Shown in pieces: positions 38,501-41,500 of a stretch of DNA of 64,000 nucleotides. Source of the stretch: Siphlonurus alternatus (taxonomy: Eukaryota; Arthropoda; Insecta; Ephemeroptera; Siphlonuridae); assembly GCA_949825025.1 (NCBI GenBank), contig OX463788.1:25128069-25192068 (forward strand), read 5' to 3'. Numbering within the stretch: position 1 is the stretch's first letter; each line of letters opens with the position of its first letter. The notes under the pieces were generated by a model that saw only the letters and a list, made by a program, of their open reading frames with translations, was not told where the DNA came from and made no database searches. A program made the translations under genes and the position numbers.

Positions 38501-41500
38501 ATCTTCCGATTTAATTTTAAATTCTAATTCTTTCTGTTTCAATAAAGCCTTATAACAGCTTCTTGCCTGAATAAATTGCTCATGCAAATTTGGGTTTTTG
38601 AATAAATATAATTTGCTGGCATGAAATTTTGATAGAAGATCTTGCCTTGATAGATAACATTCGCTATTAAACCAGGGTTTAGATACTCTTTTATTATTTT
38701 TCTTTGCAATAGTAGAATGTAGAATGACATTAGTAATTAAAGTATTTAGACTATTTACATCTTTATTATTGATATGAGTAATTATGGTATCACCATAAGT
38801 ATAAATTTGGTCATTATAATTTCTAATATCAATTTTGTTTGAATAATTTGATCTGTAAAAAAGTTTTTTATTGGGAGGATTGCTAGGGGTAAATTTTAAA
38901 ATAATTTCACCGGGTAGATGACTCTTTAACAGTGACGAGTTTGTCTCAGAAATAATGACATGTTTTATTAATATAAAATTTTTAGGTTTATAAAAAAGCA
39001 GGTCGATTGTACTTGAACCATTTGCGTTTACAAAAGTTTTTTCTAGGGGGCTATTAGAGAGTAAGTAGCCATTTGAATTTAAAATGTCTAATAGAATATC
39101 TGTCTTGTTTCGTAGATGTTTCGGGACATTTGAAAGGTCAATTCTACAGTTAAAATCGCCCGTGAAAATTACATTAGCATCATTTTCTGTGAGGCTTATT
39201 GCATATAGTACTACCTCCATTAGTTCGAGAACTGTAAAATATGGATTAAGGTACATGGCAATGACTGTGAAATATTTAGTTTTGATGATGATAAAATCTT
39301 TAAGTTTTAAGAAATTTAAAATTGGACCATGTTTTGGGTTTATGAAGCATGAGATGCCTCCAAACGGTCTCCCTCTCTGCCATTTGAAAGCAAGGTTGTG
39401 GAAGGAGTAGTAGCCATTTATGTCAAGTGATTCAAGTAAGAAGGTCTCTGTGAATACAATAATATCTCGGTTCTCAAGAATATTGTCTGAGATTAAAGGT
39501 ATTAGCTTTTTCAGGCCTTCCACATTCCATAAGAGAATATTTAGCCTTAGTGGTGAGTTTGAGACTACCACCTCGTCAACTTTGGACGGGGTGGAGCAGA
39601 GAGGGTTGCGCGAAAATGCGGGCTCGGATTGGTCGAGCTGATTATATGTTGAGGCGGGTTGTTAACTTTGGGGAGATGGGGGGTAGAGGGGTAGTGGAAA
39701 TGCTGAAGAGAGCTGGAGGGGGACTTGGAACTTTCAGAGAGCATGTTGAGCCTGTAGTAGTAGGGAGCCTTGATGAGGCGGGGAGGGCCTGATGGCATTG
39801 GATGGGGACTATTTGTATTTGTGACACATGAGGGGCGAATGGGGGTGGTTGACTGCGAAGTGCAGAGACGGGTGAGCACGGGAGGATGGGACTTAGGGGG
39901 AGATGAGGGTTGATGGACAATTTGGGGGGTGGGGTGGGCCATTGTGGGGGGGGATAAGGAGGGGGGTGGGGCAGAGGGATTGGGGAGAGTAGTGGGTGGA
40001 GTTTTGGGGGAAGGAGGAGGGGTAGAAGGTTTAGGGAATTGGGAATTTGGAGGGGAGATTTGAGGAGGGTGCATGAGACCATCGTTTGATGATAAGGAGG
40101 TGTGATGATCAGATAGGAAAGTTTTGGGGTGGGTTTGGTTGTCACCTTGGGATGTTGTTGAAGACGCCATATGGCGAGGACTTCTCCTCTGCTTCAGAGA
40201 GTAGACCTCAATAAGGATGTCCACGTTGATGAAGATAGCTTCGATTTTGCTCTTGACATAATTCCAATTGAGTCCATCTAGTCCTGAGCCGATACGAGGG
40301 ATTGCGATTCTTTTAATTTGATTTTTGACGCAGTGATTTTTAAGGCCATTCAGGCCTTTAAGGAAATTCTTCAAAAATTGATTTTGGTTTTGGGAATATA
40401 AAAATATAAAAAATATAAAAATAGAGTAGTCACACAAAAACAGAGGGGAGGGGGGGTTGAGAGACTGAGTTCTCTCTCCCCCCCCCCCTCCAAAAAAATG
40501 AAATGTTGGATTTAACATGGGTATTTTCCCCACTCCAAATTTTTTTAACATTGGACTTATGGAGACAGACCCATAATTCTCCCAATGCTATAGGTATTGC
40601 AGTAGCCTTGAAATTACATGCAAGTTCTACATAGAATCAATAAATTTTCTTTACTCCAATAAATAACCCCAATAATTTCCAATAAATAATCTACTTTAGT
40701 TGAAAGTTTATTTATTTTTTTTTTTTTAACAATGAAGCTCTTTTATGTTACAGGACGTTGCCTGAGCACCGCCGTATAGTACGTGTGCGTGGCTCGGTGG
40801 TTGACGTTGGCTATGGTGGTGGCTGCTCACCAGCTGTGCTTCTTGTGATGGACCGGTTGAGCAGAGACTTGTACTGTGGTCTGAAAGCCGGAATGTCATG
40901 GCTGGGCAGACTGCAAGTGGCTGTGGATGTTGTCGAAGGAGTGAGGTTTCTGCATGCACAAGGACTAGTACACCGTGACATCAAGCTTAAGAATGTACTG
41001 GTAGGACAAAGTTTTTTTATGTTTCTTTTAATTAAAAATTTAAAACTTAAATTACTTTCAAGCAGTAAAGGAAGTACTATTTAGGAAATGGTCAATATTT
41101 TAATTTTATAATATCAAACATTAATTTAAGCACGTTCGTTACCTTATCATTTATTTATTTTTTAATTTTTATTATTAATGTGTACTGCAACTTTTTAATT
41201 CTAATTATTAACAAATACATTCTCTCCTCAGCTTGATGAGCAACAGCGTGCAAAGCTCACTGATCTTGGCTTCTGTATTCCGGAAGCAATGATGTCTGGC
41301 AGCATTGTCGGTACTCCAATTCACATGGCGCCTGAGCTTCTATCTGGCCACTATGATAGCTCTGTAGATGTTTATGCCCTGGGGATCCTGCTGTGGTACC
41401 TGTGTGCTGGTCATGTCAGGCTGCCATATGTGTTTGAGCAATTCCACAGCAAAGAACAGCTTTGGACTAGTGTCATCAAAGGTAAGTCTAACTTCGAAAT

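Follow-up and report, generated by a model that had tools for sequence, protein, structure and literature searches.

The 64,000-nucleotide stretch of Siphlonurus alternatus DNA analyzed here (contig OX463788.1, forward-strand positions 25,128,069 to 25,192,068; hereafter the window) holds a long interspersed nuclear element (LINE) whose first open reading frame (ORF1) encodes a macro domain of the class of human TARG1/OARD1 (terminal ADP-ribose protein glycohydrolase 1), an animal enzyme that takes ADP-ribose off proteins and DNA. Complete versions of this domain were found in ORF1 of related LINEs. With a probability of about 0.6, we propose that the domain was captured from an animal TARG1-like gene and has been kept by these elements as a working mono-ADP-ribosyl hydrolase.

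A preliminary description of the window had reported a frame lying 5' of, and overlapping, the reverse transcriptase (RT)-encoding ORF2. This frame is real and consists of 340 open codons on the minus strand (39565–40587), overlapping by 97 nt an ORF2 of 989 codons without a stop (36692–39661, minus strand), which lies in the +2 (= −1) frame. Pfam identified in this ORF2 a reverse transcriptase (RVT_1, 5e-36) and an APE-type endonuclease (Exo_endo_phos_2, 3e-8). The exact identity with five compared copies stops at 40398, which is the 5' border of the element, and therefore the frame belongs to the LINE only from residue 64; its first 63 codons (40399–40587) are host intron and target-site duplication, so that the extent first given to the frame holds from 40398 downward and not above it. 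The ORF1 remnant (39565–40398, minus strand), delimited by the open frame and the comparison of copies, is the 3' part of the gene, including the stop codon. It comprises the C-terminal 68 codons of the macro domain (40195–40398, minus strand), fused in frame, as had been described, to a translated Pro/Ser-rich C-terminal tail (39568–40194, minus strand). The catalytic-type aspartate is also kept, at codon 40276–40278 (minus strand), which was read from the sequence and aligns with D125 of TARG1.

The proposed resemblance to TARG1/OARD1 was borne out by a match of the 73-aa piece at 40195–40413 with the human protein (E = 3e-12 over 61 residues that run up to the very C-terminus of the TARG1 chain), with the reservation that the window holds only the C-terminal part of the domain, the lysine having been lost by 5' truncation. 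The match to the Pfam Macro profile was weak here and stayed under the curated cut-off for the whole frame (E = 0.034) as well as for the 73-aa piece (E = 0.0027). A full-length copy elsewhere in the genome, L007, has an ORF1 of 489 aa counted from the first Met. The N-terminal lysine expected of longer copies is present, and the L007 domain alone scored above the Pfam Macro cut-off (23.6 vs 22 bits), although its whole ORF1 stayed below (20.1 bits). Among solved macro domains, the sequence was closest to TARG1 (E 1e-28; next macro entry 0.0037). The predicted fold of the domain is likewise closest to TARG1, and the 50 rows listed by VIA-align were either macro-domain entries or designed serine hydrolases.

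Further copies of this element, designated family A, were sought in the genome from which the window comes (455.7 Mb in 102 contigs). At least 119 matches to the window frame were obtained (119 scored of 949 candidates). Leaving out the window itself, 35 of the matches listed start at residues 62–64, the 5' limit of the element in the window, and all 35 also match the L007 macro domain, over its whole length in 29 copies and partially in six. Another match, more distant at 56% and starting at residue 65, extends only about 11 residues further 5'. Among the 29 copies whose domain is complete, at least 11 combine an ORF1 frame of no fewer than 485 codons with an ORF2 frame of 989–990. Full-length copies lacking the macro segment, which would have spoken against the preliminary description, did not occur among the matches listed. 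Sister LINEs without the domain were not seen either, in an ORF2 search (97 scored of 4426 candidates) that was filled by near-identical copies. Since these best 97 copies were all 99–100% identical to the window in the reverse-transcriptase region, family A has been very recently active.

The domain is not confined to family A. Twenty further loci (L009–L028) were picked among the weaker matches to the window frame, and by eye each has a long ORF1 and, behind and overlapping it, a second long frame with an RT motif (pieces of such a frame in L019 and L020). A complete macro domain was detected by profile in all 20 of these ORF1s and also in L087, L088, L089, and L090, with L088 and L090 covered on the ORF1 side only. 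By our count, based on macro identity, these elements make up about 14 families: A, 11 families in a group B, L088, and C (L089). Human TARG1 matched 13 of 13 representative ORF1s, with E values of 4e-28 to 4e-39 calculated within this small set. Both catalytic residues of TARG1, K84 and D125, are kept in 31/31 complete LINE-borne domains, near-copies included.

Additionally, the ORF2s of ten of the L009–L028 loci and of L087 were compared with that of the window, and Pfam was run on the ORF2s of the window, L087, and L091. An RT domain was found in L087. Among the comparisons listed, the group B ORF2s of L025 and L087 align with the others over most of their length at 32–69% identity, and the window ORF2 aligned with the 11 group B ORF2s only across 293–451 residues at 25–29%. 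Element C (L089 and L091, C2:9903502-9908211) has an ORF1 with a PHD finger (PF00628, E 1e-5, 25.9 bits vs 24), the TARG1 macro domain, and perhaps an esterase; its ORF2, a frame of 1045 codons with endonuclease and reverse transcriptase according to Pfam, follows directly after the ORF1 stop in the same frame. The candidate esterase, of SGNH type, was modeled with a predicted local distance difference test score (pLDDT) of 53 and had no PDB match at E ≤0.001, with several SGNH esterases among the weak matches. The macro-bearing LINEs thus fall into three deeply different reverse-transcriptase lineages, A, B, and C, the last at a single locus. In an RT tree with human L1 as the only reference element, the stem of B and the branches leading to A and C measured 2.5 to 4.7 changes per site and the branching order was not settled; A, C, L025, and L1 were flagged as long branches, and C also for its letter make-up.

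The strength of selection was estimated from the ratio of non-synonymous to synonymous substitution (dN/dS) between group B elements. For the macro domain, the ratios, which are approximate at a dS of 0.45–2.6, were 0.076–0.152 in seven pairs. In the same seven pairs the upstream flank of ORF1 gave 0.38–0.82 and the downstream flank 0.44–0.74; ORF2 gave 0.13–0.33 in the six pairs that have one. L090 and the ORF2 of L019 entered as partial sequences. In group B, the macro domain is therefore the most constrained part of ORF1, with a constraint equal to or above that of the whole ORF2.

Regarding the origin of the domain, the same genome contains host TARG1-like loci, L084, L085, and the tandem L086, all on other contigs than the window. 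In L084 and L085 the domain lies in one open frame, in L084 after an apparent splice acceptor. In a phylogenetic tree, the LINE domains cluster with the host genes and human TARG1 to the exclusion of 15 bacterial or viral-contig relatives (98/89). These 15 belong to a set of 55 such loci. Frame length was checked in 38 of the 55: 35 lie in frames of 139–185 aa, one in a frame of 268 aa, and two have no usable frame. A bacterial or phage origin was rejected on this grouping, and the domain was probably captured from an animal TARG1-like gene. A single origin of all the LINE domains was neither rejected (p-AU 0.37) nor demonstrated, the inner branches being short. As a separate observation, the host gene L086 (C3:10610744-10611595) encodes two TARG1 domains in tandem; its first domain has lost both catalytic residues (R and N in their place) and is possibly a reader paralogue.

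Macro and RT trees conflict with support within group B: L015 pairs with L018 in the macro tree (99/97), and with L087 and L009 in the RT tree (91/93 and 99/99). The identities of L019 and L021 also differ, with 92% shared in the macro domain and 50% in the compared ORF2. These conflicts show that ORF1 has been exchanged among group B LINEs, and similar exchange may have carried one captured domain into all three lineages. When family A was used alone, searches of protein databases found no match; a search of protein collections with an ORF1 alignment gave two. One of these, P0001, belongs to the sawfly Diprion similis and seems to be a host gene in which two TARG1 domains stand in tandem. The other, P0002, is a protein of 656 aa from a 3602-base contig with the source label 'lgn', 55% identical over 97% of the L025 ORF1 and with both K and D present; it probably comes from another genome, because its best match in the genome of the window reaches only 68% over residues 1–471.

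We judge catalysis by the LINE macro domain to be likely, and erasure to the benefit of the element to be less likely than that but still more probable than not. The data suggest that ADP-ribose tagging is an obstacle that these LINEs must erase to copy themselves. ORF1 protein (ORF1p) accompanies the element RNA, so that the enzyme would travel in the LINE ribonucleoprotein. Target-primed reverse transcription produces nicks and single strands, and the nicked and single-stranded DNA would activate host PARPs at the target. The macro domain might then remove ADP-ribose from the exposed DNA (template and primer), from the ends of cDNA or RNA, or from Glu/Asp residues in ORF1p and ORF2p, and this removal would let reverse transcription and integration proceed. 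TARG1 is described in PMC10933786 as removing Asp/Glu-linked ADP-ribose. Alternatively, the domain could undo an ADP-ribosylation by which the host silences or blocks the element; a review (PMC4695847) states that SIRT6 mono-ADP-ribosylates KAP1, aiding the packaging of L1 into heterochromatin.

Several points weigh against a hydrolase acting to the benefit of the element. The Pfam Macro score is below the cut-off for the whole ORF1s of L007, L024, L087, and L089. In the region of the TARG1 pocket, A42 is replaced by R or K in nine of the 11 group B families and G123 by K in L019–L022, and therefore the substrate range or affinity may differ. The dS of the macro domain exceeds 1.9 in four of the seven pairs, which makes the ratios rough, and they cover lineage B only, as the copies of family A differ too little and element C is known from a single locus. 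Moreover, loss of PARP1 or PARP2 cuts the retrotransposition of human L1 by about half according to a review (PMC8535693), and therefore any eraser would need to come into play later than, or alongside, the step at which PARP helps.

The strongest of the other explanations is that the domain is a reader and not an eraser, binding ADP-ribose and steering the ribonucleoprotein to PARylated nicks or breaks, so that its role would be targeting and not removal. Macro domains in general bind ADP-ribose. In addition, the same review (PMC8535693) reports that PARP1 and PARP2 are recruited to the sites of L1 integration and favor L1. A pure reader, however, needs no catalytic Lys or Asp, yet both are kept in every complete domain while nearby loop residues vary, and the K84A form of TARG1 is reported as inactive in passages of two papers. 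We regard the reader function as improbable, at rather less than one chance in four. A little less probable still is that the domain serves ORF1p in binding RNA or DNA or as a scaffold; it would then stand in for the RRM or zinc knuckle that other LINEs have, and catalysis would be incidental. Pfam listed only Macro in the ORF1s of L007, L024, L025, and L087, without an RRM, CCHC knuckle, PHD, or esterase, so another part must handle the RNA; the low-complexity flanks of ORF1 may do so instead, and the invariance of the catalytic residues (31/31) speaks against this reading.

Very unlikely is a passenger, that is, a host exon carried along by transduction and functionless for the element. The host genes L084 and L085, with the domain in one open frame, could have supplied such an exon, but the idea is contradicted within lineage B by a macro dN/dS of 0.08–0.15 in the seven pairs (dS 0.45–2.6), below that of the ORF1 flanks, and the domain recurs in about 14 families. 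Nothing was found in favor of a chance neighbor, with a pseudogene of host OARD1 lying next to an ordinary LINE, and this reading was ruled out by the 35/35 further-5' copies, on nine contigs, that hold the domain at the same place; nor does the segment match only a local host OARD1, the host loci lying on other contigs.

Of the two LINE proteins, that of ORF1 is less well understood, and its listed domain types are RNA-binding, PHD, or esterase; an intact and strongly selected ADP-ribosyl hydrolase module points to a specific biochemical obstacle. Whether ADP-ribosylation helps or hinders retrotransposition becomes testable by one mutation. More tentatively, and with slightly less than an even chance in our estimate, an ADP-ribosylation eraser could be a standard ORF1 module of a guild of LINEs, with capture of TARG1, purifying selection of ORF2 strength, and exchange of ORF1 across three lineages, because ADP-ribosylation of DNA, RNA, the ribonucleoprotein, or silencing factors would be a general barrier to retrotransposition in this host.

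The remaining features of the window concern the insertion itself. The 5'-truncated family A LINE occupies 36377–40398 (minus strand), as judged from the end of identity, the flanking repeat, and the neighboring kinase frames. It is flanked by a perfect 14-bp direct repeat, the target-site duplication (TAAAAATATAAAAA), at 40399–40412 on the side of its 5' end and at 36363–36376 on the side of its 3' end (strand not applicable). Endonuclease and reverse transcriptase in ORF2, 5'-truncated copies, and the target-site duplication identify the element as a LINE. It lies next to, and between, exons of a plus-strand protein-kinase gene, with Pfam kinase matches in three frames from 40704 on; in our reading this kinase is DSTYK-like, with an upstream exon near 35780. 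Across the window and ten compared loci, ORF2 is in the +1 or +2 frame relative to ORF1, with an overlap of 41–112 nt. Neither the window copy nor L087 has a Met in its ORF2 frame ahead of the endonuclease, so that ORF2 is likely translated there by frameshifting or reinitiation. A second, rearranged fragment of family A is present in the window at about 8060–8450 and 8700–8765 (match at 8260–8451), apparently split by another insertion, and the 3' end of the family seems visible by eye near 8740. Separately, the mitochondrial trnM-trnQ pair is tandemly repeated in L097 (6077–6753; four trnM and three trnQ calls), which may be real or an assembly effect. The mitochondrial gene order, in which tRNA-Leu(taa) lies between COX1 and COX2, marks the host as a pancrustacean arthropod.

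Compared with known systems, the LINE domain is like human TARG1/OARD1 in its macro class, by sequence and predicted fold, and in both catalytic residues, and unlike it in lying within a retrotransposon ORF1 with long flanks and in the altered A42 of most group B families. The macro domain of DarG, an antitoxin reversing DNA ADP-ribosylation, is unlike it in that nearly all of the bacterial and viral-contig relatives examined lie in small frames, and the 15 placed in the tree fall outside the animal group. RNA viruses use macro domains against host ADP-ribosylation. If our proposal is correct, such a use, known in bacterial antitoxins, extends to LINE retrotransposons.

Among LINEs, the frame takes the position 5' of the endonuclease-RT frame that is typical of ORF1 types I–V (RRM/CCHC, coiled-coil/RRM/CTD, PHD, esterase, and unclassified) in the scheme of Metcalfe and Casane (PMC4120745), where the ORF1s of the Jockey superfamily are described as modular and exchanged between lineages. 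The ORF1s of family A, L024, L025, and L087 show none of the domains that mark types I–IV, and the PHD finger of element C is a mark of types III/IV. This scheme has no macro domain, and the word 'macro' occurs 0 times in the main text of that paper; a word search likewise found it absent from the text of a bdelloid retroelement paper (PMC5408684). No LINE with a macro domain was found in the open-licence literature by titles, beginnings of abstracts, and word searches, a scope that leaves aside Repbase, Dfam, preprints, and subscription papers. Among precedents, the closest are endogenous retroviruses of fish that carry macro-domain ORFs (2009 work, as cited in PMC4977317). They differ in being long terminal repeat retroviruses that carry the domain in an additional ORF and not in a LINE ORF1, the macro class being unstated in the passage of PMC4977317 concerned, and they share with the LINEs described here the carriage of a macro domain by a retroelement.
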